Below, in pieces: positions 328 to 49,868 of a DNA stretch of 64,000 nt (positions within the stretch are counted from its first letter, which is position 1; each line of letters begins with the position of its first letter). The notes under the pieces were generated by a model. The model saw nothing but the letters and a program-made list of their open reading frames with translations, was not told the origin of the DNA and did not search any database. The stretch comes from Candidatus Jettenia caeni (GTDB lineage Bacteria; Planctomycetota; Brocadiia; Brocadiales; Brocadiaceae). Both the position numbers and the translations under genes were made by a program. The stretch is taken from the NCBI GenBank assembly GCA_000296795.1, contig BAFH01000003.1:1841290-1905289 (forward strand), in the 5' to 3' direction.

Positions 328-975
328 TTAGTAATGATTAACTTGGGCCTTTGCAGTCATGAGACCCCAAAGCCAGTTGATTTTGTATCTCTCAACTCTT
401 ACATTACGGTAACCAGTGCCTCGAAGTAAACGCTCACATGCACTAAGCCCATACATTTTGAAATGTGCACGATTAAACATACGAAGAAATAAATCACAAA
501 TACGACAGACAATATAATCATCGCACCAATCAGTAATTACGATTCTACCCTGAGGTTTAAGTACACGGGCGATCTCCAATAAACATGCTTCAGGCTTACG
601 TAAATAGTGAAAGGCGTTACAGGAGACTACTATATCGAAACTTTTTGAGCGGAAGGGCAAATGCTGTGCATTGCCAGTAACAAGATTGCATGTTTTGATT
701 TGCTTATTGCAAGCAACCTTGATCATTTCTTTGCTGAGATCTATCCCGATTAAATTAACTGAAGGATATTTTATGGAAATTGACCGGAGTAATGCACCTG
801 TACCACAGCCGATATCCAATACTGTATCAGTTGGTTTAATATCCAATCGCTTTAGTGTTTCTTGAAGGGTTGCGTTGATATAAAAGGCCCAATGCTTATC
901 ATATTGAGAAGCAAGATTGGCGTATTCATTAATGACAGCGTGCTCATTGTTTTGTGTATGGTTAATATTACCCAT
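328..975 (-). CDS. Class I SAM-dependent methyltransferase
   Basis: 215 residues. The SAM-binding motif I is clear (VLDIGCGTGALL, around residues 53-64), followed by an acidic motif (IGIDLSKEM) and the post-motif FDIVVSCNAFHYL with RVLKPQGRIVITDW, the pattern of Methyltransf_11/UbiE-like small-molecule or lipid methyltransferases. The C-terminal region (residues 150-215) is Arg- and Trp-rich and not diagnostic of substrate. It stands alone between a small exported protein and the YHS-phosphorylase, all on the minus strand. Substrate unknown; a quinone or lipid methylase is possible but unsupported. Confidence 0.8.
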   Translation of the reverse strand: MGNINHTQNNEHAVINEYANLASQYDKHWAFYINATLQETLKRLDIKPTDTVLDIGCGTGALLRSISIKYPSVNLIGIDLSKEMIKVACNKQIKTCNLVTGNAQHLPFRSKSFDIVVSCNAFHYLRKPEACLLEIARVLKPQGRIVITDWCDDYIVCRICDLFLRMFNRAHFKMYGLSACERLLRGTGYRNVRVERYKINWLWGLMTAKAQVNHY

Positions 976-3162: not shown

Positions 3163-5940
3163 CTATCTCTTCCTTAAAAAACATTTTATTATTTCCATAA
3201 CAAAAAAAGTAAGAGAAGAAAATCCAAAGACGATAATCCAATCCTGCAATCCTAAAGGCGTTACTTTAAAGATGCCTTCAGAGTAAGGGATATAGACAAT
3301 GGCTACCTGCATAGCTAAGGAAAGCCCCGTTGCCAATAAAAGTTTTTTATTAGTAAAAGGGCCAATCTGAAATAGTGAATGTTTTGCATTTCTGCAGTTA
3401 AAGGAATGAAATAATTGAGAGATTACCATCACACAGAAAGCAACTGTTCTTGACCGGTCGAGATCGCTTTTTAATGTGCCGCCTAAACAGCAGGGTATTA
3501 ATTCATTCTTGAACCAATAATAGAGATAGCCAGGCTCTACACTACTGGTGTAGTATAGAATATATAAATAAGCAAAAATAGTGCTGAATGCTATAAGAAA
3601 ACCTTGAAATAGTATCAATTTTCCCAAACTTCTATCTATAATTTGTTCTGTTGATCTTCTGGCGGGTCTGTTCATGATGTTAGGATCTACCGTATCAACA
3701 CCTAACGCCAGTGCGGGTAATCCATCTGTCGCAATGTTGATCCATAGTATTTGTATTGGAAATAAAGGAATGGGAAGATTGAATATTGAGGCAAAGAGCA
3801 TGGTTAAAATCTCACCTGCGTTACACGAAAGCAGGTAGTGAATAGATTTTCGGATATTATCATAAATACCCCGTCCTTCTTCAACGGCTGCAACAATGGA
3901 TGCAAAGTTGTCATCCGTTATAACCATATCAGAGGCCTCTTTGGTAACATCGGTACCGGTAATGCCCATCGATATGCCGATGTTCGCTTCTTTAATGGCC
4001 GGGGCATCATTTACCCCATCGCCTGTCATTGCCACAACTTGATTGTGTTTCTTCCATGCCTTCACAATTCGAAGTTTATGTTCAGCAGAAACCCGCGCAT
4101 ATACCCCTATCTTTGGCGCCTCTTTTTCCAGATCGTCATCGGAAAGCTTATCCAACTCCATTCCATCGATGGCCATAAAATTTTTCTTAAGTAATCCCAA
4201 CTCTTCACCAATTGCCTTAGCCGTGTTTTTATGATCTCCCGTAATCATAACCGTTCTTATACAAGCCTTATTGCAGACAGCAACGGCATCTTTTACTTCA
4301 GGTCTGGGTGGGTCAATCATTGCCAATAATCCTGTAAATACCATATCCTTTTCTACAGCATCAGAGATTGGATTTGCAATGTTGTGGCCGGGTGATTTGA
4401 ACGCCACACCGAGAACGCGCAATGCTGCTTCTGCCATCTCACAGGTTGCATTTAAGACGGTCTTGATATCATCCTTCGTTAAATCCCTTATTCCTCCATC
4501 CGTATATATTTTTGTACAATCCTTTAAAATAACATCTGGTGCACCTTTCTCATAAACGAGTAGGGTAGAATCGGGTGTTTTTCTGATTGTGGACATCTTC
4601 TTTCGTTCGGAATCAAAAGGAATTTCTGAGACAAGTAGATAATCTTTTTCAAAATTTTCTTTACAGACGTTTACTTTAGCAGCGGCAGTCAATAGAGCTC
4701 CTTCTGTAGGGTCTCCAATGACCTTCCAGGTAGTATCTTCTCTTTTCAGGTATGCATTATTACACAGTACACCGATTTCTAAAGTCTTTCTGAGTGCTTG
4801 CCGGTCAATTTCTGAAAGGGGTATGCCATTATGAGTGAAGTCTCCTTCAGGGGTATAGCCGGTTCCTGAAACATCGATCATTTTGTTATTGGCAAATATT
4901 TTTTTAACGGTCATTTCATTTTGAGTTAAAGTACCTGTCTTATCTGAGCAGATTACCGTAGTACTTCCCAGCGTTTCTACGGCTGGCAACTTTCGAATCA
5001 GTACATGTCTCTTTACCATACGCTGCACACCTAATGCCAGGGCAATCGTTACTATGGCTGGTAATCCTTCTGGAATAGCAGCAACAGCAAGGCTCACCGA
5101 TATAAGGAATGCCTCTAATATCGGATCTTTTCTCCATATCTCTAAAAGGAAAACGATTACCACGATTCCAAGACACAGATAAACCAGCTTTTTTCCAAAG
5201 GCTTCAAGTCTGCGCTGAAGGGGGGTTTCCTCTTTTCCTGCCGCCTGGATAAGACCCGCAATCTTACCCAGTTCTGTTTGCATGCCTGTTGATACGATGA
5301 CACAGGTACCTTTGCCGCTCGTTACCGAGGTGCCCATGAAGACCATATTCTTCCTGTCTCCAATAGGTAAAGATGGATTGTGAAGCGGTTCTACCGATTT
5401 GTTAATGGATGTTGATTCCCCCGTAAGTGATGCCTCCTGAGTTCTCAAGCCAAAGGAAATACAGAGTCTGCCATCGGCAGGGACATAATCCCCGGCTTCG
5501 AGTAAAACGATATCTCCCGGTACAATATCCCGGGAAGGAATTGATGATACTTCGCCATTCCGCAGAACCTTTGAAAAAGGGGCTGACATTTTCTGTAAGG
5601 CTTCAAGAGACCTCTCGGCACGGTATTCCTGGATAAATCCAATAATAGCATTAATGATAACAATGGCAATAATAGCTAATGCATCGATCCATTCCTTCAT
5701 AACCCCTGAGGTAATGGCAGCCGCAATCAATATCCATACAATAAAGTTATTAAACTGTCCGAAAAAGATTAATAGGGGGGATACACGTTCTTTTTCCTCT
5801 AATTGATTGTGTCCGTATTTCTTGAGCCTGTTCTCTGCCTCAGCGTGAGTAATTCCCGTATTGATATCGGCATTGAGGCTCGCTATTACTTCATTAGCCT
5901 CCATGGTATGCCAGGATGTTTTGAGCATTTTTTCAATCAT
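3163..5940 (-). CDS. P2-type cation-transporting ATPase (Ca2+-ATPase-like)
   Basis: About 925 residues from ATG 5940, which has AGAAGG seven bases upstream; a TTG 18 bases earlier is less likely. All catalytic motifs are present: TGES in the A domain, PEGLPAIV in TM4, the phosphorylation site [28 protein letters not shown], and C-terminal helices with [13 protein letters not shown]. This order and the N-terminal cation-ATPase domain ([19 protein letters not shown]) match SERCA/PMR1-like bacterial P2A pumps. It probably exports Ca2+ (or Mn2+). The last 150 residues include a Cys-containing loop ([20 protein letters not shown]) between helices. It follows the mini-protein 2942-3064 in reading direction but is probably its own transcription unit. 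Ion specificity is inferred from family only. Confidence 0.88.
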
Positions 5941-6118
5941 AGGATTACCTTCTCTCAAACAAAATTAAAATTTTGATGCAGCGGTAGGATCTAACCCCCT
6001 GTTTGCAACCCATGTTCATTTGCAATAATCTTGTGCATTGTCAATCGTCGTCGGGAGACGGCTCCTACCAAGCGATTCTCTTTGTGACTTTGTGTCTTTG
6101 TGGCCTGAAGAGTTGCCA

Positions 6119-9089: not shown

Positions 9090-9422
9090 TTATCTCTTAA
9101 GTAGACCTTCTAAAAAGGATGACGGGCTTTTCTTAAAGGCCGTTTTACAGTTTTCCGAGCAGAAGTAGTACGTTGTGCCTTTATAGTTCTCAGTGGGTGC
9201 CTTTTTGATATCGCTGATGACCATACCACACACGGGATCTATTACAACCTCAGTTTTTTCGACCTTTTCCTTATCTTTTGCCTGAGCAGCATGTCCACTT
9301 GATTCATGATTACTCTGTTTACTTTCTTCACTGTATGCCCATATAATATTATTTGTATAAGTACTACTTAAGCCTACGGTAATACTGGCTAAAAAAACTA
9401 TACGTAAAATAGTACTGTACAT
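9090..9422 (-). CDS. Exported YHS-domain protein
   Basis: 110 residues, start ATG 9422 behind GAAGGAGG. Residues 1-30 are a signal peptide (YSTILRIVFLASITVGLSS), then a charged linker (SEESKQSNHESSGHA), then a YHS domain from residue 62: DPVCGMVISDIKKAP, KGTTYYFCSENC, FKKSPSSFLEG. YHS domains bind copper or other soft metals through the CGM and CxxxC cysteines. It is closely related to 11054-11401 in length and order, and the IS element at 9648-10986 lies between the two. A periplasmic or anammoxosome-lumen copper-binding role is inferred. Confidence 0.8.
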   Translation of the reverse strand: MYSTILRIVFLASITVGLSSTYTNNIIWAYSEESKQSNHESSGHAAQAKDKEKVEKTEVVIDPVCGMVISDIKKAPTENYKGTTYYFCSENCKTAFKKSPSSFLEGLLKR

Positions 9423-11053: not shown

Positions 11054-11401
11054 TTAATGCTTGTGTCCTTTTTCCCCAATGTGTTGTTGAGACTCCGGAG
11101 TTGTATAGGATGCAGGATCTTTTTTAAAGGTCTTTTTACATTGTTCGGAGCAGAAGTAGTATACGTTCCCTTTATACTCTTCTGAAAGTGCCTTTTTTGT
11201 ATCACCAACTTCCATACCGCATACCGGATCTTTAACAGCCTCTGCTTTTGCCTGAATTACGTGTCCATCTGGTTTATGGCTACCGTGCCCTTCTTCGCTG
11301 CCATGTGATCCACCACATGCCCACAGAACCTTACTCGCATAAGTCCCACTTAAACCAATAACAAAGGTGGATACTAATACAGTACGTAAAATAGTATTCA
11401 T
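11054..11401 (-). CDS. Exported YHS-domain protein
   Basis: 115 residues from ATG 11401, chosen because AAAGGAG lies ten bases upstream; an in-frame ATG 39 bases earlier has no ribosome site. Signal peptide residues 1-27 (NTILRTVLVSTFVIGLSGTYA), then a short segment rich in Cys, His and Gly (CGGSHGSEEGHGSHKPDGH), then the YHS domain DPVCGMEVGDTKKAL, KGNVYYFCSEQC, FKKDPASYT, and a His-rich end (QHIGEKGHKH). The His-rich flanks make copper or nickel binding more plausible than in its paralogue 9090-9422. Probably located outside the cytoplasmic membrane. Confidence 0.8.
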   Translation of the reverse strand: MNTILRTVLVSTFVIGLSGTYASKVLWACGGSHGSEEGHGSHKPDGHVIQAKAEAVKDPVCGMEVGDTKKALSEEYKGNVYYFCSEQCKKTFKKDPASYTTPESQQHIGEKGHKH

Positions 11402-11460
11402 CGTACATCTCCTTTCTGAGACCATTTCAAAAATGTTCATGAAATTACAATAGCTCTGCG

Positions 11461-15672: not shown

Positions 15673-17391
15673 TTATACCTTCTTATAAGAAATAAGCCGT
15701 GCATTGAGAGCAACAATAATCGTGCTTACAGACATAATGATGGCACCTACTGCCGGTGGAAGGATTATTCCATAATTGGAGAGCACCCCCGCAGCGAGTG
15801 GAATTGCAAAAATATTATAACCCGTAGCCCATGCTAAATTTTGTGCTGTTTTTCGGTAGGTAATACGGGAAAGGGATATTACGTCTACTACCGTCCGTGG
15901 ATCATTATTTACTAATACAACATCCGCTATATGAAATTTTTTTAGCCGTTCAATTGCCTCTCTCGATTCATCCCGGATTATATCTGCAAGGCCAATGATC
16001 CCTTGAATTTTATCCTTGGTTGTAACAAGCACGATAGTCTTACCCTGAGAGGCTATCTCATCAATTCTTTTCTCAACTTCATCTTGTGTAATACCGACAA
16101 TTTCCAGTATTCGTCTATTTCCTATATAAAGTTCATTGCCTTCGATTTTTGCCTTTGCCCCTTTTCCGGGAATCGCCTCAAAATTTTCAGTCATATATAA
16201 TTCCATATTTTTTTCCCTGGCCTTCTTGATAATGCCCTGAGCAATCGTATGCTCTGAATGTGCCTCAAGGGAAGCTGTCCTGCGTAAAAGCTCTTCTTCG
16301 TTCCAATCCCCCAGAGGGACAATATCCGTTACCCCGAATTCTCCTTTTGTCAGTGTCCCTGTTTTATCGAATACAACGGTATGTAACCTCCGTCCACTTT
16401 CAAACGATGTCCTGTTCCGTATCAAAATACCATTTTTTGCTGACAGCGTAGTAATCATGGCAATAACTAACGGTACTGCCAGACCTAATGCATGAGGACA
16501 GGTGATTACCATAACCGTTACTACGCGTTCAAGGATAAAGTCAAATTTTGCGTTGTAGAGAAGCCAGCTTACCAGTGTAATAACTCCTGCAACAAGAGCG
16601 GTTATGGTGAGCCAGAATGCTGCCTTATTTGCTAAGTCCTGTGCCCTTGATTTGCTTTCGCTTGCTTTTTTAACCAGTTCAACTACCTGGGAAAGATACG
16701 ATTCCTCACCGACCCTGGTAACTTCAACGGTTAATGAACCAGCACTGTTTATAGAGCCTCCTATTACCTTGTCATCTTTTTTTTTGTCCACCGGTTTCGA
16801 TTCGCCGGTAATCATAGATTCGTTAACCTCGGATTCACCCTCAATAACCTTACCATCTGCTGGAATTTTTTCTCCGGGCCTTACAAGAACCCTATCCCCT
16901 TTCTTTAGTTCTTCAATTTTTACATCCTTTATTGATCCATCACGTACAATGATATGCGCCTCGGCAGGCATGAGTTTCGATAATTCCTCTAGTGCGTGTG
17001 AGGCACCCATTACCGATCGCATTTCAATCCAATGTCCCAGGAGCATGATATCGATTAAGGTAGCAAGCTCCCAGAAAAATACCTCTCCTTCTAATCCGAA
17101 AACCACCAGACTGCTATAGGTATATGCAACCGTAATTGCAAGAGCGATGAGTGTCATCATACCCGGTTGTTTTTTCGTGAATTCATGAGAAACACCCCGA
17201 AAGAATGGCCACCCGCCATAAAAAAAGACAAAACTCGATAATCCAAAAAGTATATATTTTTCACCGGGAAATTCTAAAGAGAATCCGAAGAACGATTGAA
17301 TAAGAGGGGAAAGGACTAAAATTGGTATCGTTACACCAAGGGATACCCAGAAACGTATTTTAAAATCCCTCAACATATCAGTGTGATTCAT
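15673..17391 (-). CDS. CopB-like P1B ATPase lacking the hinge segment
   Basis: 572 residues, ATG 17391 behind AGGAGG. Features in order: two N-terminal helices (RFWVSLGVTIPILVLSP), A domain with MITGESKP, the CPH metal site in TCPHALGLAVPLV (the CopB type), DKTGTLTKGE, and N-domain HSEHTIAQGI. The P domain then jumps from REAIERLKKFHI straight to ADVVLVNNDPRTVV. In related pumps about 75 residues with TGDN and GDGxNDAPAL lie between these. The join is in frame, so the gene was not simply disrupted. Without the Mg2+-coordinating GDGxNDAP loop, normal ATP-driven transport should fail. It could be a binding or regulatory relic, or a recent in-frame deletion mutant. Confidence 0.85.
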   Translation of the reverse strand: MNHTDMLRDFKIRFWVSLGVTIPILVLSPLIQSFFGFSLEFPGEKYILFGLSSFVFFYGGWPFFRGVSHEFTKKQPGMMTLIALAITVAYTYSSLVVFGLEGEVFFWELATLIDIMLLGHWIEMRSVMGASHALEELSKLMPAEAHIIVRDGSIKDVKIEELKKGDRVLVRPGEKIPADGKVIEGESEVNESMITGESKPVDKKKDDKVIGGSINSAGSLTVEVTRVGEESYLSQVVELVKKASESKSRAQDLANKAAFWLTITALVAGVITLVSWLLYNAKFDFILERVVTVMVITCPHALGLAVPLVIAMITTLSAKNGILIRNRTSFESGRRLHTVVFDKTGTLTKGEFGVTDIVPLGDWNEEELLRRTASLEAHSEHTIAQGIIKKAREKNMELYMTENFEAIPGKGAKAKIEGNELYIGNRRILEIVGITQDEVEKRIDEIASQGKTIVLVTTKDKIQGIIGLADIIRDESREAIERLKKFHIADVVLVNNDPRTVVDVISLSRITYRKTAQNLAWATGYNIFAIPLAAGVLSNYGIILPPAVGAIIMSVSTIIVALNARLISYKKV

Positions 17392-17618: not shown

Positions 17619-17929
17619 GAGGAGAAATAGAAAAACTGCTTCTGATTACGTGGATTAAGATACTAATAGGCAATTATGTTTGATTATACATACATAAATG
17701 ATGATTATTCAAAATTACATTACAGATATCCTGTATCCCCCTATGTATCTAGACAAGAATTTTTATAAATACCTATTTACGGGTATGCTGTTTGAAGGTT
17801 TAAATAAAAATTCCATTAAAATTACCCATTACTATTAAGGAGTAGGGAGTTACTTTTTCAAAGGGGATTCGTTAAGTTGTTTAAGGATTAATGTGCAAAA
17901 TGTACCTTTTTAGAAGAAAGGAGCTTATT

Positions 17930-18298
17930 ATGGCTATTACAGGAACAAAACAGATGTCAAAAGAATTGGAGAAGTGTATTAATGATTGCTTGGATTGTTA
18001 CAAGGTTTGTGTGCAAACAGCATCCTATTGTTTAGAGAAGGGAGGAAAACATGTGGAGGCAGGACATATTAAACTGCTGAAGGATTGTATAGATGCCTGC
18101 TTGGGCAGCACCGGCTTTATGCTTCGGAACTCTGACTGGTCGGGACAAGCATGCTCTTTTTGTGCGGATATCTGTATGAAATGTGCAACTGATTGTGATA
18201 GTTTTGATGATGAACAGATGAAGAAGTGTGCCGATGTTTGCAGACGTTGTGCAGACTCCTGCCGAAAAATGGCTGATATGGCAGCCCAGCGCGTTTAA
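17930..18298 (+). CDS. csp: Cytosolic four-helix-bundle copper-storage protein (Csp-like)
   Basis: 122 residues from ATG 17930, eight bases after AAAGGAG; an upstream in-frame ATG at 17891 has no ribosome site. There is no signal peptide, which fits the cytosolic Csp3 type rather than Tat-exported Csp1. Cysteines line the helices in the CxxxC / CxxC pattern of the family: CINDCLDCYKVC, CLEKGG, KDCIDACLG, CSFCADICMKCATDC, CADVCRRCADSC. Such tetramers take up many Cu(I) ions inside the bundle. The gene lies between two P1B ATPase genes, one divergent and one downstream, both of which lack essential motifs, so copper storage may have taken over from export here. Confidence 0.88.
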   Translation: MAITGTKQMSKELEKCINDCLDCYKVCVQTASYCLEKGGKHVEAGHIKLLKDCIDACLGSTGFMLRNSDWSGQACSFCADICMKCATDCDSFDDEQMKKCADVCRRCADSCRKMADMAAQRV

Positions 18299-18511: not shown

Positions 18512-18535
18512 CTGTTTTTCAAGGAGTTGCTGCAG

Positions 18536-21576: not shown

Positions 21577-21747
21577 TTATTTTATCCCAACATATTTAAG
21601 AGGTGATTGCTCAAATTTCAATTTACATGCAACAGAACAAAAGTAATATGTTTTTCCCTGATGATTGGTAGTTGCTTGAATATCCTTCTCCTCTAAACGC
21701 ATACCACATACCGGGTCTTTGTATCTCATTGAGGATTGTTTCATCAT
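21577..21747 (-). CDS. Stand-alone cytosolic YHS protein, coupled to the GH15 gene
   Basis: 56 residues. ATG 21747 overlaps the TGA of the GH15 gene (CGATGATGA), with AGGAGG upstream inside the GH15 coding end, so translation is probably coupled. The protein is almost nothing but a YHS domain: KDPVCGMRLEEKDIQAT, HQGKTYYFCSVAC, KFEQSPLKYVG. There is no signal peptide, unlike the exported YHS proteins at 9-11 kb. It closely resembles the N-terminal domain fused to the glucan phosphorylase at 1038-2876 ([25 protein letters not shown]). The link to a glucan-degrading gene is therefore repeated in two forms in this window. Confidence 0.8.
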   Translation of the reverse strand: MMKQSSMRYKDPVCGMRLEEKDIQATTNHQGKTYYFCSVACKLKFEQSPLKYVGIK

Positions 21748-23711
21748 CGCTTGTTTCCTCCTAGAAGATAATATTTATCGAGGTAGTCCAGGACGGTAAT
21801 GATAAATTCAGCATGACTCCAGCTTAATGGGCACACCGAAATAAGGCGTTCGCCAAAAGGATGTAACTGCTCTGGTAGTGCACCTGAGGGACGTGTATGT
21901 CGGGTTACCCATAGTAAAATATCAATCACACTCTGTAGTTGTTCCAGCGAGTGTGCTGCCGCTATTTTATATTGTGCCAACCAGAGTGTGCATATGATCC
22001 AGGGGTTTCCCGGTATCCGTTTGAAATCTTCTGTTACAGAAACAAACCGGTCACGCTCGTAACGGGCAATGCCACCAACCTCGGTCTTTACTGTCAGGCG
22101 GTCTTCGATTTGTCTCATTGTGGAAACAACCATCGGATTATCAGCGGGAAAAAGACCAAAAGCGGTTACACCAAACAAACTCGCATCAATGGTGAGATCT
22201 AGCTCTTTCGTGTCAGGATTAAATCGTTGTGCGAATCGCCCATCTTGAGGACTATAGAGGATACGTTTTGCTGCTTCTTGTATTTCGAATGCTGCCCTTC
22301 GATACTTTTCAGCTAAAGGCTGATCTCTAAAACTTTCTGCAAAATGCGCTGCGGCGATAAGTCCGCCGTAAACTGTTGCAACGGTAAAGGTATGTACACC
22401 ATATCGTTCTTCCCATAAATCATAGGAAGGGCGTGGTAATCCGGTGTCCTCAAAACGGTAATCCTCTAAAAAATCTGCTGCACGGATGATAAAATGCTTA
22501 TAAAGCTGATTTGCAAAATCGATATCTTTATGGCGAATAAAATGCTGCCATAGAGCCCAGAGTACCAGTGCTGTTCCATCCTCCTGAATAGGTATCTCCA
22601 TCTGCTCACGGGCGTACCATGGATGCCAGGAGCTTCCCAGGCTTCTATCCGGATTATATTTATGAAGAAGGTAGCCTTCATCGGTTATAACGTCTGCACA
22701 GAAACGGAAAAAATTGCGAGGTATATCAATATATCCTGTACGGGTGAGGGCATATGCCGCCCGCGCCGCATCCCGGGGCCAAACATAACTGTAGGTATCA
22801 CGCCCAAATTGCAAAAGGTCTGAATCGTTGGCAGCAATGATCCCTCCATGATTATCAGTCATTGTGCGGATCGTTAAAAGACTACGCTTGTAGAGATCAA
22901 CTATACCAGATGGCAGATCAGCAAAATTGGGTAGACCTTTGGTCATCCATATACGCCAATAATCCTCTGTGTGATCAATCAATTCAACCGGAGATTTATC
23001 GATAACGATGGCATTAAGAGATCTTATTTCACTGAATTTCGTTCCAGCAGTTATCCAATAATAACAAGCAGCTTGGCCATGCACAGGCAGTGTCATCCTC
23101 AGAGCAATAGTCGAGTCTACTGAGCCCTGTTCGATCGGATTCTTGCCGAGCTGTCCATCCTCAGCATCACGCCATGTCCCTTCTGCTCTTCCATATTCCT
23201 TGATCCCGATTGCCCACTCCTCGATACCGATCATTGTATCTACCTTAGCATTGACTAAAAAATAACGGTTAGCCTTGTAATGGATAATAGCTTGAAGTCG
23301 AGGTTCGTAAAGAGCCGTATCGGCAATGTTATTCTCGTAAAGGTGAAAGTCCTGGTGGAAAAACAGACGAATTTCTCGCAAACGGTTAGCCAGGTTATGA
23401 ACAATCACTTCCCGCAGATAGATGTTATCGTGAAAGTCCACGGCATCCCGACAATCCAACATAAGCTCAAACCTCTGATTGATAAGCTTTACAGCAGTTA
23501 CTAGTGTGTCAGGCTTATAAACGAGTACCCGTTCCCAATCTGGTTCGTGTATCCAGCTCAATTGTCCATCGATAAAGATACCGAAGCGAAAGGCATGCCC
23601 AACAGTATGGTTTTCCTGACCGACATGCGGGAAGTAAATATCGCGTAGTCGATAAGCATCGTCAAACATTACTTGCAGTGATCCGTTACCAATAGTCAAT
23701 TCTCGCGGCAT
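21744..23711 (-). CDS. GH15-family glucoamylase-like glycoside hydrolase
   Basis: 655 residues from ATG 23711, which has AAAGGAGG upstream; an earlier in-frame start lies inside that site. The N-terminal third is a beta-sandwich (LTIGNGSLQVMFDDAYRLRDIYFP). The C-terminal part is the (alpha/alpha)6 barrel with YSYVWPRDAARAAYALTRTGY, the GH15 signature around the first catalytic segment, and SYDLWEERYGVHTFTVATVYGGL, which carries the catalytic-acid region. The late helix PLSWSHAEFIITVLDYLDKY is also typical. Family members release glucose from alpha-glucans or trehalose. No signal peptide is seen, so it probably acts on internal glycogen together with the two phosphorylases. Coupled to the YHS gene downstream. 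Confidence 0.88.
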   Translation of the reverse strand: MPRELTIGNGSLQVMFDDAYRLRDIYFPHVGQENHTVGHAFRFGIFIDGQLSWIHEPDWERVLVYKPDTLVTAVKLINQRFELMLDCRDAVDFHDNIYLREVIVHNLANRLREIRLFFHQDFHLYENNIADTALYEPRLQAIIHYKANRYFLVNAKVDTMIGIEEWAIGIKEYGRAEGTWRDAEDGQLGKNPIEQGSVDSTIALRMTLPVHGQAACYYWITAGTKFSEIRSLNAIVIDKSPVELIDHTEDYWRIWMTKGLPNFADLPSGIVDLYKRSLLTIRTMTDNHGGIIAANDSDLLQFGRDTYSYVWPRDAARAAYALTRTGYIDIPRNFFRFCADVITDEGYLLHKYNPDRSLGSSWHPWYAREQMEIPIQEDGTALVLWALWQHFIRHKDIDFANQLYKHFIIRAADFLEDYRFEDTGLPRPSYDLWEERYGVHTFTVATVYGGLIAAAHFAESFRDQPLAEKYRRAAFEIQEAAKRILYSPQDGRFAQRFNPDTKELDLTIDASLFGVTAFGLFPADNPMVVSTMRQIEDRLTVKTEVGGIARYERDRFVSVTEDFKRIPGNPWIICTLWLAQYKIAAAHSLEQLQSVIDILLWVTRHTRPSGALPEQLHPFGERLISVCPLSWSHAEFIITVLDYLDKYYLLGGNKR

Positions 23712-23749: not shown

Positions 23750-24772
23750 TTATCTTTTATGGCAAACGGTACATTCAATACCAATATCATCAAGAGAAGG
23801 ATGGGGTGGGTTGGGGGGTCCGCCAGGATGACACTCCAGGCATGGTAATCCTGTAAAAGGTGGATGAGGAGAATCAATAGCTGATGGATGCGTCGGATCA
23901 GGATGGCATACCGTACATGAAACATTTGATACAGGAATATGGCAATTTCGACAGTGACGATTTCTTGGGCTACCCCAAGAGGCTACATGGTTTAAAGGAG
24001 TTGTACTCTCATGACATCGGACACAAAAGTCCTCTTGATGACAAACCATACATTTCTTCCGATCCCATGATGCAGCAAATCCGTGAGTTCTTCTCCGCCA
24101 TGCATTATTATGACTTCTGGGTTTTTGGTCTTGATGGCAGTTAACACATGAATCTAGGCTCTCATGGCACCGTTTACAGTAATCTTGATTATAATAAAAT
24201 TCATTTCCATGCTTTTGTATCCATAGTGGGTCATCGTGATTAACCCAGCGGTCTTCATGGTAGAGGGGCATACGATCCTTTCGAATGTACTTATGGCAAA
24301 CATTGCATGCGATCCTTTCCTTCCCTCTTTTCCTGTGACATGGCATGCAGGTATTGTACATGGTAGGAAGTATATCAGGAGTAATGGTATCTCTCTTCTC
24401 AATGCCTACATGGCATTGATTACATGCTACGTTATTTTCCAGATGTACCTTATGGGTAAATTTTAATTCCTGATATTTTTTGGGTATAACATGCTTAACC
24501 GTTATTTTCATTCCGGGTTTCGTATGGCAAAACAAGCAAGATTGTAGATTTTTGGTATCATAATATTTCATATGACAAATAAGGCATTTTGCCATTTTAG
24601 GCCAATCCGGTTGAAGATCATCTTTATAGGAATGACAGAAGTTACAGTCCTTTAAGCCTCTTTCCATATGCTTGGCATGGCTGTAATGGATCTCAGACTC
24701 TTTACAACCTCCTAATATCGTTATCATAACGAATACCATTAAAAAAACTAAGTAATAAGATTTTTTTATCAT
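23750..24772 (-). CDS. 14-haem c-type cytochrome lipoprotein
   Basis: 340 residues with a signal peptide ending in a lipobox (ITILGGC, Cys 23). Fourteen CxxCH motifs follow, in order CNFCH, CLICH, CLFCH, CNQCH, CMPCH, CNVCH, CKRCH, CVNCH, CMVCH, CVRCH, CRNCH, CTVCH, CLECH, CTVCH; the last ends three residues before the C-terminus. Many additional His residues could act as distal ligands, suggesting a bis-His electron-transfer wire. It is preceded by a barrel protein gene (24862-26235) on the same strand 89 bases upstream, the arrangement of porin-cytochrome conduits. No clear similarity to hydroxylamine or hydrazine oxidoreductases is seen. Probably membrane-anchored and extracytoplasmic. Confidence 0.9.
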   Translation of the reverse strand: MIKKSYYLVFLMVFVMITILGGCKESEIHYSHAKHMERGLKDCNFCHSYKDDLQPDWPKMAKCLICHMKYYDTKNLQSCLFCHTKPGMKITVKHVIPKKYQELKFTHKVHLENNVACNQCHVGIEKRDTITPDILPTMYNTCMPCHRKRGKERIACNVCHKYIRKDRMPLYHEDRWVNHDDPLWIQKHGNEFYYNQDYCKRCHESLDSCVNCHQDQKPRSHNNAWRRRTHGFAASWDRKKCMVCHQEDFCVRCHESTTPLNHVASWGSPRNRHCRNCHIPVSNVSCTVCHPDPTHPSAIDSPHPPFTGLPCLECHPGGPPNPPHPSLDDIGIECTVCHKR

Positions 24773-27041: not shown

Positions 27042-30000
27042 TTACACTAAAATCCCTGTTTCAGCAATACCCGGATCTTTCTTGAGCGCCTTCTTAAATT
27101 TGTATTCCTTATGCCATGCATTGAGGCAGGGGACGATAAAGACACTGATGAGTGCCATGGCCATACCGCCGATAGAGGGGATTGCCATAGGTTTCGCAAC
27201 CTCGGATCCGGCGCCGGTTGACCACAGGATAGGGAGGAGTCCTATAAATGTGGTGGCGGCTGTCATCATACACGGTCGTATTCTCCGTGTACCCGCTAAG
27301 AGTATCGTGTTCCGGATTTCCTGGACACTTTTCATCTTCCTCTCACCAAATAAATCATTGATATACGTGGTAATGAGAACAGAGTCATCGTCAACGATAC
27401 CAAAGATAGAGATAAAGCCTACCCAAACGGCAACACTGAAGTTATACCCAAAAAGATAGAGGAGTATCACACCACCAGCAATGGCCGTTGGTATACCTGC
27501 AAATAGGATAAACATCGTTTGTGGTATCGATTTAAAGGCCATGAAAATCAAAATAAACCCGATAAATTGAGATAATGGCACGAGTATTTGCAATCTCTTT
27601 CTCGCCCTGATCTGGTTCTCAAACTGGCCACTCCACTGGATAAAGTACCCATGGGGTAACATAACCTTTTGCGATACAACCTTGGATGCCTCTTCCACAA
27701 AGCTCATGGGATCTCTCCCACGGACGTTCATAAGTACATACGCACGCAGAAGGGCATTCTCACTGCTAATCATTGCAGGTCCCATGACATAGTGAATATC
27801 TGCCACTTGGGTAATAGGAATTTGTTGCCCTGTGGAACCGGGAACGTAAATCCTTTTCAGTGCATCAAAGTTATCCCGTAACTCTCTCATGTACCTGACA
27901 CGTACGGGGTATCGATGACGCCCTTCTACCGTAGTCGTTATATTTTCCCCTCCGATGGCTGTTTCAATGATATCCTGCACATCGCGGATATTAACTCCGT
28001 AGCGGGCAATTTCCTCACGTTTAATCTTGTATTCCAAATAGGGTTTTCCCGTAACCCTCTCTGCATACAGGTCTGCGACACCAGGAACAGCTTTGAGTGC
28101 CTTTTCAACATCTAAGGCCAGTTGTTGTATAACATTCAAGTCTGGTCCAAAGACTTTAACTCCAACGGAGGTACGGATACCTGTGGCCAGCATATCGATT
28201 CGGTTTACAATGGGTTGCGTCCATATATTTGCCACGCCAGGTATCCTCATTGCCTCGTCCATTTCCTGGATAAGCTCTTGTTTTGTGATCGTCCGTTCAT
28301 CGGGTAAAAAGAAATGAAACATGGGGTGGAGAAAGGAGGGTACATGATTCAAAAACGTATACTCAATCTTCTTTTTACGCCATTCATTTTCGGGTTTTAA
28401 GGCAACGAGGGTCTCAAACATCTCAACGGGTGCAGGGTCTGTGGCGGTATCTGCCCTCCCCAGTTTTCCAACCACGGTATCTATCTCGGGGAAGGACTTG
28501 ATAATCATATCTTGCTTTTGCATTATTTTAAGGGCTTCTGTTAATGATACACTCGGGAGCATCACCGGCATAAATAGGATAGAACCTTCATCGAGAGGGG
28601 GCATAAATTCCCTTCCCAATCTTTTAGCAAGAAAGGCGGATAAAATGACAATGACAAGTGGAATAGCCAGAAATGTTCTCTTATGATTTAATACCCAGCG
28701 AAGGACAGGTTCATAACCTCTTAAGAGCGCTCGGGAAGTAAAATTTTCCTCCATCGGTTTTAATTTACCTTTTATAAAATAGGTACAAAGGATGGGTACT
28801 AAGGTAATCGCCATAACGACCGATGCACCGATAGCAAAGGTCTTTGTCCATGCCAATGGTTTAAAAAGCTTTCCTTCCTGCCCGGTAAGTCCAAATACGG
28901 GAAAGAACATACAAATAGTAGTTAAAGCTGCAAAGAATATAGAACTCCCAACCTCTTTTGATGCATCAAGGATGATTTGCGCCCTTGGTTTCTTATCCTT
29001 TTGTTCTGCAAGATTTCTAAAGATATTTTCCGTCATGATGATGGACATATCGCTCACTTCACCGATAGCGATTGCAATGCCCGTGAGGGACATGATATTT
29101 GAGTCGATACCCATGAAATACATACCCAGGAAGGAAATAAGTATCGATATGGGGAATCCAAGGATACAGATAATAATACTTCTGACATGCAACAGGAATA
29201 ACGCGACAACCACTGAAGTGATAATGATCTCTTCTATCAATGCCTCTCTCAGGGTATCGATAACACGATAGATAAGTCCTTCCCTATCGTAAAAGGGGAC
29301 GATCTTTACACCCTCCGGCAGTCCTGGCCCGATCTCTTTGATCTTCTTTTTTATCCGTTTAATCACTTCTAAGGGGTTTTCACCCTGGCGCATAATAACG
29401 ATTCCACCGACAACCTCCGCGCCTTCCTTATCAAGCGCCCCTCGTCTAAAATCCCCTCCCACCTGAACGGTACCGATATTTTTAATAAATACCGGCACAC
29501 CGTTATAGCTACCTACCATAATGTTCTCAATGTCGTCAACGTTTTTTATAAATCCGAGACCGCGGATGATAAACTCCATGCTGCTCGTCTCAACCACCTT
29601 TGCACCCACGTCGATATTGCTTTTGCGAACAGCCTCATATACACCTGCGGTTGTTACACCGTACGCAAAGAGTTTGTTTGGGTCTATATCGATCTGGTAT
29701 TGTTTTACGAAACCACCGACACCGGCTACCTCAGAAACACCTTCAACGGCGTTAAGCTGATACCGGACATACCAATCCTGTATGGACCGCAGTTGCCCAA
29801 GATCATATCCCGGACCTTCCACGGTATACCAAAAAATTTGGCCAAGCCCCGTTGCGTCAGGACCGAGCCTCGGTATGACATCTCTCGGAAGCAATGATTG
29901 TACAAAATTTAATCTCTCTAATACCCTGGAACGTGCCCAATAAAAATCGATTCCATCCTGGAAGATAATAAATATCATGGAGAAGCCAAAACCTGATTGG

Positions 30001-30251
30001 GACCGAATGACTTTTACACCGGGTACACCAAGTAGGTTGACCGTTAGGGGGTAGGTGACTTGATCTTCAACATCCTGAGGACTGCGTCCCGGCCAATCGG
30101 TAAAGACGATACACTGGTTCTCACCAATATCCGGGATAACGTCCATATTGACATTTCTTAACCCGAAGACGCCACCGAATATAACCAGGAGGTAGAAGCT
30201 GATTACCAGGAATCTATTTCTGAGGCAGATTTCAATAAGTTTATTGATCAT
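27042..30251 (-). CDS. cusA: CusA/CzcA-type RND heavy-metal efflux pump
   Basis: 1069 residues, full length for the HME-RND family. Motifs: N-terminal helix NRFLVISFYLLVIFGG, the periplasmic segment FTDWPGRSPQDVEDQVTYPL, TM4 with GIAIAIGEVSDMSIIMTEN (the proton-relay Asp is present), a second large periplasmic loop, and the C-terminal repeat FSVAVWVGFISIFGIVDDDSVLITTYI. It is the inner-membrane pump that moves periplasmic or cytosolic metal through CusB and the TolC-type channel. It is the last gene of the blaI-M56-tolC-cusB-cusA series, separated from cusB by a 0.5-kb GxxExxY element. The metal is most likely Cu(I)/Ag(I), given the surrounding copper genes; Zn/Co is possible. Confidence 0.93.
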   Translation of the reverse strand: MINKLIEICLRNRFLVISFYLLVIFGGVFGLRNVNMDVIPDIGENQCIVFTDWPGRSPQDVEDQVTYPLTVNLLGVPGVKVIRSQSGFGFSMIFIIFQDGIDFYWARSRVLERLNFVQSLLPRDVIPRLGPDATGLGQIFWYTVEGPGYDLGQLRSIQDWYVRYQLNAVEGVSEVAGVGGFVKQYQIDIDPNKLFAYGVTTAGVYEAVRKSNIDVGAKVVETSSMEFIIRGLGFIKNVDDIENIMVGSYNGVPVFIKNIGTVQVGGDFRRGALDKEGAEVVGGIVIMRQGENPLEVIKRIKKKIKEIGPGLPEGVKIVPFYDREGLIYRVIDTLREALIEEIIITSVVVALFLLHVRSIIICILGFPISILISFLGMYFMGIDSNIMSLTGIAIAIGEVSDMSIIMTENIFRNLAEQKDKKPRAQIILDASKEVGSSIFFAALTTICMFFPVFGLTGQEGKLFKPLAWTKTFAIGASVVMAITLVPILCTYFIKGKLKPMEENFTSRALLRGYEPVLRWVLNHKRTFLAIPLVIVILSAFLAKRLGREFMPPLDEGSILFMPVMLPSVSLTEALKIMQKQDMIIKSFPEIDTVVGKLGRADTATDPAPVEMFETLVALKPENEWRKKKIEYTFLNHVPSFLHPMFHFFLPDERTITKQELIQEMDEAMRIPGVANIWTQPIVNRIDMLATGIRTSVGVKVFGPDLNVIQQLALDVEKALKAVPGVADLYAERVTGKPYLEYKIKREEIARYGVNIRDVQDIIETAIGGENITTTVEGRHRYPVRVRYMRELRDNFDALKRIYVPGSTGQQIPITQVADIHYVMGPAMISSENALLRAYVLMNVRGRDPMSFVEEASKVVSQKVMLPHGYFIQWSGQFENQIRARKRLQILVPLSQFIGFILIFMAFKSIPQTMFILFAGIPTAIAGGVILLYLFGYNFSVAVWVGFISIFGIVDDDSVLITTYINDLFGERKMKSVQEIRNTILLAGTRRIRPCMMTAATTFIGLLPILWSTGAGSEVAKPMAIPSIGGMAMALISVFIVPCLNAWHKEYKFKKALKKDPGIAETGILV

Positions 30252-30763: not shown

Positions 30764-32941
30764 TCAATGCTCATGCTCCTTAAATTCCATCGCACCGCCA
30801 TACAATGCACTAGCTCCTCCTGTTAACTGGCTCTGGGAGTCGATAAGGAAGTTTGCTGTTGTAACTACTTTATTATCTTCTTCTAGCCCGTCCAGGACTG
30901 GGTAATAATCACCTGCCTTCGGGCCAAGAATGACCTCTTTTCCTGCATATTGCCCATTGCCTTTATCAAGATAGACGATCTTTCGTATGCCAGTATCTAA
31001 TACGGCTGTGGTAGGAATAGCGAGTACTTGTGTGGTCTTTTCCAAACGCATTCCACATTTTGGACAGTCTCCAGGTTTATCAGAGGTTACTTCCGGATGC
31101 ATGGGGCAGGCATAAACAACACGTTTCTTAAATTCAGCCTTTTTGACCTTTATCCCCAACCCATCTTTCATCTCCCATTGACCCATAGGCCTTTTACATT
31201 GATCGCATTCGCCAGGTTTATCAGAGGTCATACAGGCCATAGGACACATATATACAAATTTTTGTTTTTCTTCACCTTCTGGTGTATTTACCGTTACACT
31301 TGTTTGTACCAACATACCACACATGGGACATAACTGAGGTGCCGTAGTTGGATCCAACGCCTGTGGACAAATGCATGTCTGCTTTTCTCCTGAAACCTCA
31401 ATTGGTATCTCTCTTTCTTCAAGCCTCATACCACATACAGGACAATCGCCATCAGTCTTTGCGGTATGACACTCCATGGGACATACGTATGCCGTTTCTG
31501 TTTTGACCTCAGGTTCTTTTTTTGCCATTTCAGTTTTTCTTGTAATATCAGGGGTAGGCTTGGAGACAGGGACTTTTTCTAATTTCATGCCACAAACAGG
31601 ACATTCTCCAGGCTCCTTGGATCTATGGCATTTCATGGGACATACGTATTCATATTCGATCTCTCCTTGTTGTTCTGCAAAAGCAACAACTGCGGCGGGT
31701 TCAGCTTGAATAGGGGGTCTCTTTACAAATGGCGCATTATCTTCGGGACATATACCCGGTCTGCTCGATTTTATTTCAGGGTGATTAGGACAAAAATAAT
31801 CTAGCCCGCTCACATAGGTATCACCCTCTTTGGTAAGTTCTTCAATCGGCACACGTATGCGGGCATTGACGTACATAGCGGGTTTCAGTTTAAATTGTGG
31901 ATTAGGGATGTCGCAACGCATTCTTACAGAGCGTGTCTTATCATCCAGGAATGGTTCAATAAACGTTATCTTTCCTATAAAGGCCTCTCCCGGATAGGTC
32001 GGTGTTGTAACCTCTACCTCTTGTCCGACCTTAACCCATGACATCTCGTACTCATAAACATTAGCCATCATCCATACATTTGAGAGATTCGCAATCGTAT
32101 ATATCACATCGCCCTGCATAACATATTGACCTTCCAGTGCTTTCCTTTCTGTTACAATACCACTGACAGGGGCGTAGATAATAGTATGCTGCCTTACCTT
32201 TTTCTCTTTTGCAAGCTCCTCAATCTGTTTTTCCGTTAATCCCCACCATAATAATCTTCTTTTTGATGCTTCGAGAAGTGATTTTCCTCCTTGTACTACT
32301 TCATCAAAAGTACTATCCCCGGTTTTTTCGGCAGTTTCTAACGCCAAGAGATATTCTTCCTGTGTAGAGACGAGATCTGGACTATATATCCAAACCATAG
32401 CCTCGCCCTTAATGACCTGCGTACCGGTAAAGTCAACAAAAAGCCTGTCAATCCTGCTTGGAACCCATGCAGCGACAGTTGCTTTAAGTCTTTCGTCATA
32501 TTCAATTAACCCTACCGTATATATATCCTTGGTAAGCGATCGAAAACTAACAACATCTGTTTTGACCTGTGCCAATGCACGGGCTCGTTCACCCAACTCT
32601 ATCGTAGCTACAGCACCCTCTTCCTCTACGCCTGTACCTTTTTCATATACCGGAATGAGATCCATAGCGCAAATCGGGCATTTACCAGGCTTGTCCATTT
32701 TAACTGATGGGTGCATACCACAGGTCCAATACAGGATTTTCTTCTCTTTTGCTTCTCCTTTTACCTCTTTCTTCGCTTCTTCTGCGTATGCAGAGGGAAC
32801 AAGATCTGATACATCCTGGAGAGACTTATGGCAATCCGTCTCTGCTGTGTGAGGTATATAAGTACCAAAAAGTAAAATGAAAACAATAGGCAAAAGTCTT
32901 AGAAAATGCGTGCTATACAGAAACTTTTGTTTAAAGGACAT
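30764..32941 (-). CDS. cusB: CusB-type membrane-fusion protein with seven heavy-metal-binding modules
   Basis: 725 residues against roughly 400-500 usual for CusB. A signal segment is followed by one heavy-metal-binding module near residues 70-97 (YWTCGMHPSVKMDKPGKCP). Next come the barrel-sandwich, hairpin and beta-barrel parts (IYAPVSGIVTERKALEGQYV, KLKPAMYVNARIRVPIEEL). Between the barrel and the terminal domain (LAIPTTAVLDTGIRKIVYL) about 250 residues hold six more modules of the type CPMxCHxxKxGxCPxCGMxL, near residues 384-634. The adaptor links CusA to the outer-membrane channel; the modules should chelate Cu or similar ions through Cys, Met and His. The array is the standout feature. 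One module (CICPQALDPTTAPQLCPMCGM) is degenerate. Confidence 0.92.
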   Translation of the reverse strand: MSFKQKFLYSTHFLRLLPIVFILLFGTYIPHTAETDCHKSLQDVSDLVPSAYAEEAKKEVKGEAKEKKILYWTCGMHPSVKMDKPGKCPICAMDLIPVYEKGTGVEEEGAVATIELGERARALAQVKTDVVSFRSLTKDIYTVGLIEYDERLKATVAAWVPSRIDRLFVDFTGTQVIKGEAMVWIYSPDLVSTQEEYLLALETAEKTGDSTFDEVVQGGKSLLEASKRRLLWWGLTEKQIEELAKEKKVRQHTIIYAPVSGIVTERKALEGQYVMQGDVIYTIANLSNVWMMANVYEYEMSWVKVGQEVEVTTPTYPGEAFIGKITFIEPFLDDKTRSVRMRCDIPNPQFKLKPAMYVNARIRVPIEELTKEGDTYVSGLDYFCPNHPEIKSSRPGICPEDNAPFVKRPPIQAEPAAVVAFAEQQGEIEYEYVCPMKCHRSKEPGECPVCGMKLEKVPVSKPTPDITRKTEMAKKEPEVKTETAYVCPMECHTAKTDGDCPVCGMRLEEREIPIEVSGEKQTCICPQALDPTTAPQLCPMCGMLVQTSVTVNTPEGEEKQKFVYMCPMACMTSDKPGECDQCKRPMGQWEMKDGLGIKVKKAEFKKRVVYACPMHPEVTSDKPGDCPKCGMRLEKTTQVLAIPTTAVLDTGIRKIVYLDKGNGQYAGKEVILGPKAGDYYPVLDGLEEDNKVVTTANFLIDSQSQLTGGASALYGGAMEFKEHEH

Positions 32942-33079: not shown

Positions 33080-34444
33080 TTATTGTGTCAATTGTATACC
33101 CGTAGCTCTTTCCAGATTTGCCAAATTTTGTTCAAAATCAATAAGCGCCCTGTGGTAAAGTAATTTTGCATTCAGAAGAGTTCTCTGACTATCAATGAGG
33201 GTTAGGAAATCTACCCTGCCTGCCTCATATCCAATACGCGCAGCCTTTAACGATTGCTCTGCCTGCGGAATTACACCGGTTTTATACAGGTTTATGGTAC
33301 TCTCGGATGCTTGTAACCTCACGAGAAGATCTTTAACCTCAAATAATGTCTTATTATTAATAAAGCGATAATCTGACTTAGCGGCTTTGAGGGTTTCTTT
33401 GGTTTCCTTAACCTTTGACCGGTTCTTCGGCCATAGCCACGGGACATTAATTGTAATAGCCGATGCCCATGTATCAGAACTTTTATCCTCTTGCATGTAC
33501 TCCACCATCGGTTCAAAATCCGAGAAGTAATAATCCTTTTTCGAAAGTTTTACCTCTGCTTCGCTCCTCTTAATAAGGTGATCAAACCTTTTCAGCTCCG
33601 GCCGGTTTTTTATGGCAATATCCTCCAGCTCTTTGATCGTTAAACGTAAACTATGCTTTTCAAAAGGGCGCGGTTTTCCCAGGGGCGCTTCTGTAGGTCT
33701 GTCTAATAGTATATTTAATCGGGCAACCATAGATTCACTCTCTTTATTTAAAACAATGATATTGTTAGCTAAGGTAGATAGTTCAACCTGTGCTGCAAGC
33801 ACATCTCTTTGGGTAGCCGTACCTACAGCATATTTTTCCTGGGTAATTGTAGCAAACCTGCGCAGTAAACCCCTGATTTCTTCGGTAATATCAATCGCGG
33901 TGTTGATATAAGAGAGTTCATAAAAAGCCGATTTTACCAGGGCTAAAATCTCTTGTATTTTCGATTGAAGTTCTTTTTCCACCATATGTGCATCTTCTGT
34001 GGCTATTTCACCTCTGAGGCGCAATTTCCCGGGAAAGGGTATCTTCTGTGATACGCCGTAACGCTGTTGAAGCATATCGGTTTGGCCATTAATATTGAGG
34101 GGGTGATTGGACATATCAAAAGAACCGATGCGAATATTGGGATCATCTAAAGATTTGGCTTGTGGAATCTTTGCTTTTGCAGCATGTAAGCGTTTTTGGG
34201 CAGCTATAATTTCTGGATTATGTTCCTTCGCTTCTTGAATCAACCACTTTAAATCTAACGGAGCATCGGCCTCATTCATCTCAACAACGTTCTTACTATT
34301 CATCGCATGTTGAGCCGGGTTATTCTTTTCCTGGGCAATAGCATCGGCACATAAGATGAATAAGATACATGAAAAAAGAGGTATTTTTAATGGTATTTCA
34401 CGTATGTTTCGAAATATAATTATCCACATTTTATCATATGACAT
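33080..34444 (-). CDS. TolC/CusC-like outer-membrane efflux channel
   Basis: 454 residues with a signal peptide (IPLKIPLFSCILFILCADAIAQ) and two OEP-type halves: AKEHNPEIIAAQKRLHAAKAKIPQA and, in the second half, AIKNRPELKRFDHLIKRSEAEV; the repeated coiled-coil hairpins are typical. The C-terminus has AGRVDFLTLIDSQRTLLNAKLLYHRAL. It should form the trimeric channel for CusBA. The start codon overlaps the 3' end of the M56 gene by 25 bases; the next ATG, 15 bases on (34429), overlaps by 10 and is equally possible. Lipid attachment Cys as in CusC is not obvious. Confidence 0.88.
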   Translation of the reverse strand: MSYDKMWIIIFRNIREIPLKIPLFSCILFILCADAIAQEKNNPAQHAMNSKNVVEMNEADAPLDLKWLIQEAKEHNPEIIAAQKRLHAAKAKIPQAKSLDDPNIRIGSFDMSNHPLNINGQTDMLQQRYGVSQKIPFPGKLRLRGEIATEDAHMVEKELQSKIQEILALVKSAFYELSYINTAIDITEEIRGLLRRFATITQEKYAVGTATQRDVLAAQVELSTLANNIIVLNKESESMVARLNILLDRPTEAPLGKPRPFEKHSLRLTIKELEDIAIKNRPELKRFDHLIKRSEAEVKLSKKDYYFSDFEPMVEYMQEDKSSDTWASAITINVPWLWPKNRSKVKETKETLKAAKSDYRFINNKTLFEVKDLLVRLQASESTINLYKTGVIPQAEQSLKAARIGYEAGRVDFLTLIDSQRTLLNAKLLYHRALIDFEQNLANLERATGIQLTQ

Positions 34445-35391
34445 GTTTTGGTTTTACAATCTCCTGGATGTGCAGGAGTAAAGAACTTACAGATTAAAGA
34501 TAAACACAGTATTACGGCAATAAAAAGCGATAAAAGGCAAGAAGAATAGAGAGAAGTCCTGGCAAAGCAGGAGGGAGCCATTTGAGGTTCCAACAAGCGC
34601 CTTATTCGATCCTCTACAATATTTTGCCCTTTGAAAGAGATGGCCAACGGATACAGTTTTGTCGCTCTGTTAGATTTGCATAACTTAACGAGTGCGCTTG
34701 CAAGCTCTAATGGTTCTTTAGAGAAATATATAGCATTATCATCAGCTGCTTTTTCAGATGCTGAGGAGAACAGGTGTAACAGATAACGATTAACCGGAAG
34801 AAAGAAATTGAGTGCGTAGAGTATCTGTATAACAAATAACTTCAGTGGATCTTTATTCTTTTTGTGATGGATTTCGTGGAGGATTACAGCGAGGATCTCC
34901 TTTTCTGTTAGATATGAGCATATACCCAGAGATAGGTAGACCTTCGGCTTCAGCAAACCTAGCGTAAAAGCACTGCGTAATTCATTATTGTCTAAAAGCA
35001 TAAGCTGATGAGAAACCTGTGCAGAGTTTGCAATACTTTTTAATTTCGGATGGTTTTCAATGGAAATAGATGGTAAGGAGCGGATAAAGCTGTAGTTCCG
35101 GAATAACAGGAAAAACGTTTTATAGATAGCTAAACATATCCCAACAAAAAATATTACTACGCAGGCCCAGGGAAGTACTGTGGTGAAGGTATGTAAAGTA
35201 AAAATACAGTTTGAGCAAATACTCCTGCAGCATGTGATAGATTCATAGGCGGCCTTCGTATCACTGACATACCCTTTGACGCCAAATACAATACCCGTAA
35301 TTATTATAGACGATACGATAAAGTTAATACATACTATCAGCGCAAAAGAGATTTGTGCTTTTCCTTGTTGAGTTCCAACTGAGTGTTTCAT
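34420..35391 (-). CDS. BlaR1/MecR1-type M56 membrane metallopeptidase
   Basis: 323 residues from ATG 35391, four bases after the blaI stop; a TTG 39 bases earlier would overlap blaI. Transmembrane helices lie at IVCINFIVSSIIITGIVFG, CVVIFFVGICLAIYKTFFL and near the C-terminus. The zinc motif HEIHH (VILHEIHHKKNKDPLK) and the downstream ASEKAADDNAI match M56 peptidases. There is no penicillin-binding sensor domain, so the signal is not a beta-lactam. It should sense a signal, probably metal or envelope stress, and cleave or inactivate the adjacent BlaI-type repressor to release the efflux operon. The extracytoplasmic CCRSICSNC loop (residues 30-38) is a candidate metal sensor. Confidence 0.85.
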   Translation of the reverse strand: MKHSVGTQQGKAQISFALIVCINFIVSSIIITGIVFGVKGYVSDTKAAYESITCCRSICSNCIFTLHTFTTVLPWACVVIFFVGICLAIYKTFFLLFRNYSFIRSLPSISIENHPKLKSIANSAQVSHQLMLLDNNELRSAFTLGLLKPKVYLSLGICSYLTEKEILAVILHEIHHKKNKDPLKLFVIQILYALNFFLPVNRYLLHLFSSASEKAADDNAIYFSKEPLELASALVKLCKSNRATKLYPLAISFKGQNIVEDRIRRLLEPQMAPSCFARTSLYSSCLLSLFIAVILCLSLICKFFTPAHPGDCKTKTCHMIKCG

Positions 35392-35395
35392 AAAA

Positions 35396-35827
35396 CTATT
35401 TCTGAGATTTATTTTGTCTCTTTGATTCAATTAATTTGGAAAAATACTCTAATGTATCCAGGTTCATTTGTGCCATATAATCCATAAAATGTGCCATTAC
35501 TGAATGAGGAGAAAGTTCGGAAGCCCCTTCCATAACCTTTTTAGATACAAATTCAAAAAACTGTTCTTTGTCATAAATTGGTGTATAAAAATAGCTCTTT
35601 CTCACCTTTTTCCTTTTCAGAAATCCCTTATTAACGAGCCGGTTCGTAACAGTAATTACGGCAGAGTAAGAAATATTCTTGTTAACGGGAAAAGCTTTTA
35701 GTATATCCCTTACGCTGGACTCTCCACAGTTCCACAAAGCTTCCATTATATCCTTCTCCAATAGACCCAATACCTGGTTTATGCCTTCCTTGAAAGGATT
35801 GAAATGAAATTTTAGTTGTTTGCTCAT
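35396..35827 (-). CDS. BlaI/MecI/CopY-family winged-helix repressor
   Basis: 143 residues. The N-terminal wing-helix pattern LGLLEKDIMEALWNCGESSVRDILKAF, then the DNA-reading helix region ISYSAVITVTNRLVNKGFLKRKK and YFYTPIYDKEQFFEFVS, match the Penicillinase_R family, which includes the copper repressor CopY. It lacks the C-terminal CxC pair of CopY, so metal does not seem to be read directly; the adjacent M56 peptidase is the likelier sensor. First gene of the efflux operon. A palindrome 63 bases upstream (35890-35912) could be its operator. Confidence 0.88.
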   Translation of the reverse strand: MSKQLKFHFNPFKEGINQVLGLLEKDIMEALWNCGESSVRDILKAFPVNKNISYSAVITVTNRLVNKGFLKRKKVRKSYFYTPIYDKEQFFEFVSKKVMEGASELSPHSVMAHFMDYMAQMNLDTLEYFSKLIESKRQNKSQK

Positions 35828-46869: not shown

Positions 46870-46872
46870 GAA

Positions 46873-49337: not shown

Positions 49338-49340
49338 AGT

Positions 49341-49793: not shown

Positions 49794-49868
49794 ACTGTAA
49801 AAATCTTCTCTTCTTGCATCATTGCCTAATTGTCCTGAAATTATCACACTTTGTATGTCAGATGTATT

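Follow-up and report, generated by a model that had tools for sequence, protein, structure and literature searches.

Archaeal TRASH metallochaperones are small copper proteins of the size and domain type considered here, and in GH15 glucoamylases two glutamate motifs have catalytic roles. At the locus examined here, in Candidatus Jettenia caeni, a stand-alone YHS gene overlaps a GH15 gene within a copper-efflux island. Small YHS/TRASH copper proteins encoded beside copper ATPases, exemplified by a 58-aa YHS protein whose gene lies directly 5' of a heavy-metal ATPase gene in Chroococcidiopsis, are comparable in size, domain and copper context, but have an ATPase as their partner, whereas the partner here is a glucoamylase with an overlapping stop and start. 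The GH15 protein shares its domain and catalytic motifs with oligosaccharide amylases and glucoamylases (TIGR01577, PF00723), but differs from the TIGR01577 type in its coupled YHS gene, in its copper-island setting and in scoring 333.5 bits against the oligosaccharide amylase equivalog model, below the curated cut-off of 820.7. The same island encodes an alpha-glucan phosphorylase (TIGR02094) with an N-terminal YHS domain, a widespread arrangement that likewise places YHS on a glucan-degrading enzyme, but by fusion as opposed to coupling, and with phosphorolysis in place of hydrolysis. In the class IIIc adenylyl cyclase of Mycobacterium phlei, the YHS domain makes the enzyme copper-activated, probably by means of one Asp and three Cys residues (PMC4626032). 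That domain is of the same family as the present one, has the Asp and three Cys in common with it and is also attached to an enzyme; however, it is a C-terminal fusion and a tested copper sensor, whereas here the YHS protein is separate, co-translated and known from sequence.

The stretch of DNA analysed (the window, 64,000 nucleotides, to which all coordinates refer) derives from a 4.09 Mb assembly in four contigs. The GH15 glucoamylase gene (21744..23711, - strand) encodes a 655-aa protein of cytosolic type, which matches Pfam Glyco_hydro_15 (PF00723) with 95.7 bits against a cut-off of 22, and in which the WEER and SWSHAEF motifs align with the WEE and HAE(Y) motifs of the solved glucoamylase 1lf6. 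The ATG at 23711 is the likely start, and an AGGAGG suited to it is found downstream of the TTG start of a longer GH15 frame. The adjoining YHS gene (21577..21747, - strand) encodes 56 aa and matches Pfam YHS (PF04945) with 53.1 bits against a cut-off of 30.3, across profile positions 2-45 of 47. No signal-like stretch is evident by eye at the N-terminus of either protein. The GH15 gene ends in ...AAG CGA TGA, its stop codon occupying 21746-21744 and the YHS start codon (ATG) 21747-21745; the 4-nt ATGA stop/start overlap that results (21744..21747, -) predicts translational coupling of the two genes, and an AGGAGG ribosome-binding site for YHS (21757..21762, -) is contained within the C-terminal codons of GH15, 9 nt 5' of the YHS ATG. 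The sequence and its open reading frames hence bear out the arrangement described in the earlier note, in which YHS starts within the GH15 stop and draws its ribosome site from the GH15 tail. The accompanying remark that such a gene is too short for most gene callers was overstated, since RefSeq does annotate mini-YHS genes of such length (58 aa, on plasmids of Chroococcidiopsis and Meiothermus). Rfam and tRNA searches revealed no features.

Among 61 further genomes of the same order, only two have this GH15 intact, designated G017 and G023 (76% identity), such that the adjacency is not unique to the present genome. In both, YHS is located 39 bp past the matched GH15 end, and reading of the DNA revealed the identical ATGA overlap and AGGAGG, which are therefore present in all three intact copies. 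The dN/dS ratio for YHS is 0.11 (G000-G023) and 0.23 (G017-G023), the third pair being saturated at silent sites, and purifying selection acts on the gene. Given that G017 and G023 share both the overlap and the AGGAGG, and that YHS dN/dS is low where silent sites are unsaturated, the pair represents more than chance; a chance juxtaposition is ruled out by the conservation of both elements across the three genomes. Remnants of the pair were identified in two further genomes, comprising a GH15 stub fused through a deletion to a YHS stub in G022, and a frame-broken GH15 followed by YHS remnants in G031. The operon is real and conserved, and it is confined to this lineage. None of the 63 other GH15 genes of the order, including this genome's two others, has a listed YHS gene within 50 kb, no GH15-YHS pair was found outside its own family in 294 Planctomycetota genomes, and plasmids yielded no close relative of this GH15; together these rule out a general GH15-YHS association. 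A fusion of GH15 with YHS was not found among the searched genomes.

The genes around the pair constitute a Cus-type copper/silver efflux island, in which CusCBA and a copper P-type ATPase neighbour GH15-YHS. On the - strand are a CusA/CzcA RND efflux pump (27042..30251; TIGR00914, 1064 bits), a CusB adaptor with five heavy-metal-binding (HMBD) motifs (30764..32941), a CusC/TolC outer-membrane factor (33080..34444) and genes for a BlaR1-like M56 protease and a BlaI-like repressor (34420..35827), the latter two probably regulating the Cus operon. A search for a CopY/BlaI-type (copper-repressor-like) operator near the GH15-YHS pair returned matches no more frequent than chance. Also present are a copper-translocating P-type ATPase (15673..17391, -; TIGR01511, 465 bits, cut-off 397) and a DUF326 cysteine-rich four-helix copper-binding-type protein identified by profile match (17891..18298, +). 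The latter adjoins a copper P-type ATPase fragment (18527-19681, +), in which DMNG replaces the DKTG phosphorylation motif and which, from its sequence, is probably inactive as a pump. Close to one end of the window, and again on the - strand, a class I SAM methyltransferase gene (328..975) adjoins that of the YHS-alpha-glucan phosphorylase (GT35) fusion (1038..2876), with a cation-transporting P-type ATPase recognised by profile matches beyond (3163..5958). A ParE-like toxin and Unstab_antitox antitoxin pair (20687-21218, -) is directly downstream of the YHS gene, and two near-identical Y1 (IS200-like/REP-type) transposases (19872-20408 and 26399-26869, -) bracket the GH15-YHS segment. A further region (43949-50201, -), encoding a radical SAM/oxidoreductase, ketosynthases, a FabZ-like protein and acyl carrier proteins, resembles a ladderane cluster and fits an anammox genome.

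Kinship to loci of Kuenenia and Loosdrechtia likewise suggests an anammox planctomycete. Gene order in G017 is BlaI, M56/BlaR1, CusC, CusB, CusA, GH15, YHS, methyltransferase, outer-membrane factor and multicopper oxidase, with YHS, response regulator, YHS, FHA, radical SAM and cation ATPase genes farther on. The GH15-YHS pair or its remnants are located ∼0.1-1.2 kb after CusA in G017, G022 and G031 (∼0.1-0.4 kb for the remnants in G022 and G031). The present window has genes of the same kinds, and between CusA and GH15 it has additional genes for a cytochrome, a porin and a transposase; the multihaem cytochrome upstream of GH15 (23750..24772, -) is absent from that position in all three of those genomes. 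Homologues of the methyltransferase are found 3' of GH15-YHS in G017 and 5' of the phosphorylase fusion on cyanobacterial plasmids.

The island contains four YHS domains in all, and across the order 34 of 124 listed YHS have a listed CusA no more than 15 kb away against ∼1.3 expected, by a rough count. YHS genes adjoin many kinds of metal genes, and for this reason the proximity of YHS to GH15 could be incidental. The main rival to a functional partnership is that the mini-protein serves the Cus island as a generic copper metallochaperone or buffer, captured behind GH15 as a well-translated position and bearing no functional relation to the enzyme. This is a serious possibility, albeit one that stops short of being probable. 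It accords with the clustering of YHS domains with Cus genes, with the four copies in the island, with the small YHS gene 5' of the Chroococcidiopsis ATPase, and with the closest plasmid matches, which include many YHS domains inside or at heavy-metal ATPases. It accounts less readily for an overlap that is kept down to 76% GH15 identity, or for the joint decay of both genes. Moreover, the two unattached YHS proteins of this window (9090..9422 and 11054..11440, both -) have N-termini that appear signal-like by eye and are probably exported, whereas precisely the two YHS attached to glucan enzymes are of cytosolic type, lacking a signal-like N-terminus on the same inspection. Two variants on the theme were observed elsewhere, namely a CusB bearing YHS domains and followed by three tandem CusA genes (L077; G010 C95), and a genus-conserved cation P-type ATPase of 1167 aa, in which the C-terminal ATPase segment is duplicated and which adjoins an exported-type YHS (L089, L099, L008).

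All four predicted metal ligands (D11, C14, C37 and C41) are present in the 56-aa protein, and the D, C, C, C set is invariant in 40 aligned YHS sequences and in eight fused ones. The structure was modelled with an alignment (pLDDT 85), a model without alignment having attained a pLDDT of 69. The best fold matches, with E-values of only 0.06-1 for a 56-residue model, were the YHS-bearing toluene/phenol monooxygenases, followed by ribosomal L24e-type chains and a TRASH domain. The YHS domains of toluene monooxygenase are metal-free in the crystal (PMC4626032), and some archaeal fused YHS domains have lost ligands (L125, L147 and L165). Both observations, and the rank of these monooxygenases as top fold matches, would suit a YHS domain added to glucan enzymes for structural or substrate-targeting purposes, metal binding not being its role here, but all aligned bacterial YHS sequences and fusions retain the four ligands, which together with the copper-island setting makes that explanation very improbable.

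Compared with GH15-YHS, the YHS-phosphorylase fusion is both broader in distribution and of more interest. Full-length fusions are encoded on cyanobacterial plasmids (Chroococcidiopsis, Leptolyngbya, Stanieria and Aulosira) and in genomes of Omnitrophota, Ignavibacteria, Bacteroidota and Nitrospirota, and a second set occurs in Bathyarchaeota and other archaea. A single clade of all fusions was rejected (p-AU 2.6e-75), bacterial and archaeal fusions grouping separately in the tree, and the archaeal YHS-phosphorylase is a separate fusion event. Additional small YHS genes (50-63 aa) adjoin the fused GT35 gene at two loci (L119 and L117), and in Meiothermus a 58-aa YHS gene lies ∼450 bp 3' of an unfused glgP. 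Among 80 loci, 6 of the 14 with a fusion had metal-efflux genes within ∼10 kb, compared with 2 of 66 unfused relatives (Fisher p 2e-4); on phylogenetically independent pairs the association was not significant, and it is unconfirmed on the tree because such pairs are too few. For plasmid phosphorylases of 44-61% identity, a heavy-metal/cation ATPase or CusA was found within 12 kb in 9 of 12 regions, as against a metal gene nearby in 1 of 7 regions for more distant plasmid phosphorylases, in a comparison counted by hand and ignoring kinship. Enterobacterial plasmid glgP was considered as added support and rejected, the copy inspected being part of an ordinary glgBCAP-pgm operon with no metal genes. 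That operon, on a Citrobacter freundii plasmid (L112), is complete, and hundreds of plasmids from Klebsiella and Citrobacter give glgP matches.

Several of the phosphorylase clusters include genes for phosphoketolase, acetate kinase, type II GAPDH, phosphoglucomutase or debranching enzyme, a content that would fit a reserve-to-energy module. At three loci, in Criblamydia, Nitrospirae and Methylophaga (L104, L119 and L232), phosphorylase, phosphoketolase and acetate kinase genes occur together in metal/stress islands, and these gene sets possibly constitute a mobile glycogen-to-ATP route.

A further alternative is that GH15 and the YHS-phosphorylase are hitch-hiking passengers of a mobile stress island with no part in copper resistance, the coupling being one ancestral layout present in three related genomes. 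In keeping with this, GH15-YHS is known in one family only, is decayed in G022 and G031, and is absent from the CusA locus in the same-genus genomes G027 and G028, where CusCBA is present at 85-97% identity. However, purifying selection on both genes, and the repeated occurrence, on plasmids from several phyla, of distant glgP genes next to genes for metal efflux, render the passenger explanation improbable.

The fused and coupled cases sit in one copper-efflux island and are therefore not independent observations, contrary to the earlier note, which had taken GH15-YHS as a second independent link between YHS and glucan degradation; two independent links in this genome are ruled out. The description as a Rosetta-stone pattern also fails in the strict sense, because the fused enzyme (GT35) differs from the coupled one (GH15). 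What survives of the proposed functional connection is the conserved coupling (three of three intact copies, plus two joint remnants), the widespread GT35 fusion and the small YHS genes near phosphorylases; independence, the Rosetta-stone argument and a general GH15 association do not. The shared denominator of fused and coupled YHS is copper islands, and not glucan degradation in general.

Given the translational coupling, intact predicted ligands, copper context and purifying selection documented at this locus, the reading we tentatively prefer, at a little under an even chance, is that a small cytosolic YHS/TRASH-type protein, co-translated with GH15 in a horizontally assembled copper-efflux island, would act copper-responsively on a glucan enzyme. 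The YHS protein would then be the copper-responsive partner of GH15, with coupling serving to keep the two products in step. The metal bound by YHS would be copper, and the protein would act on or with GH15, such that a rise in cytosolic copper may lead YHS to switch on, or to shield, glucan breakdown. Such breakdown would supply the cell with energy, in the form of sugar phosphate or glucose, at a time when other pathways are being damaged by copper. In Synechocystis, copper represses chromosomal glgP and glgX, with a fall in glgP transcription (PMC4182526), an observation that fits equally well with a need for an island copy and with glycogen use being unwanted. An extension of the preferred reading, in which copper-resistance islands of several phyla place glucan enzymes under direct copper control by YHS sensors, either as a fusion (phosphorylase) or by co-translation (glucoamylase), so that a rise in cytosolic copper sets off glycogen use for emergency energy while the chromosomal enzymes are off, is rather unlikely as it stands. 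In the open-access literature, no paper was found that joins YHS domains with phosphorylases, or copper resistance with glycogen phosphorylase and genomic islands.

Taken together, the data suggest, short of proof, that such islands connect copper stress with the consumption of stored sugar. If YHS does respond to copper, metal stress and the use of carbon reserves would be directly connected at the level of regulation, through mobile islands that range from those of anammox planctomycetes to cyanobacterial plasmids, and a domain frequent among copper genes, yet rarely tested, would gain a function.
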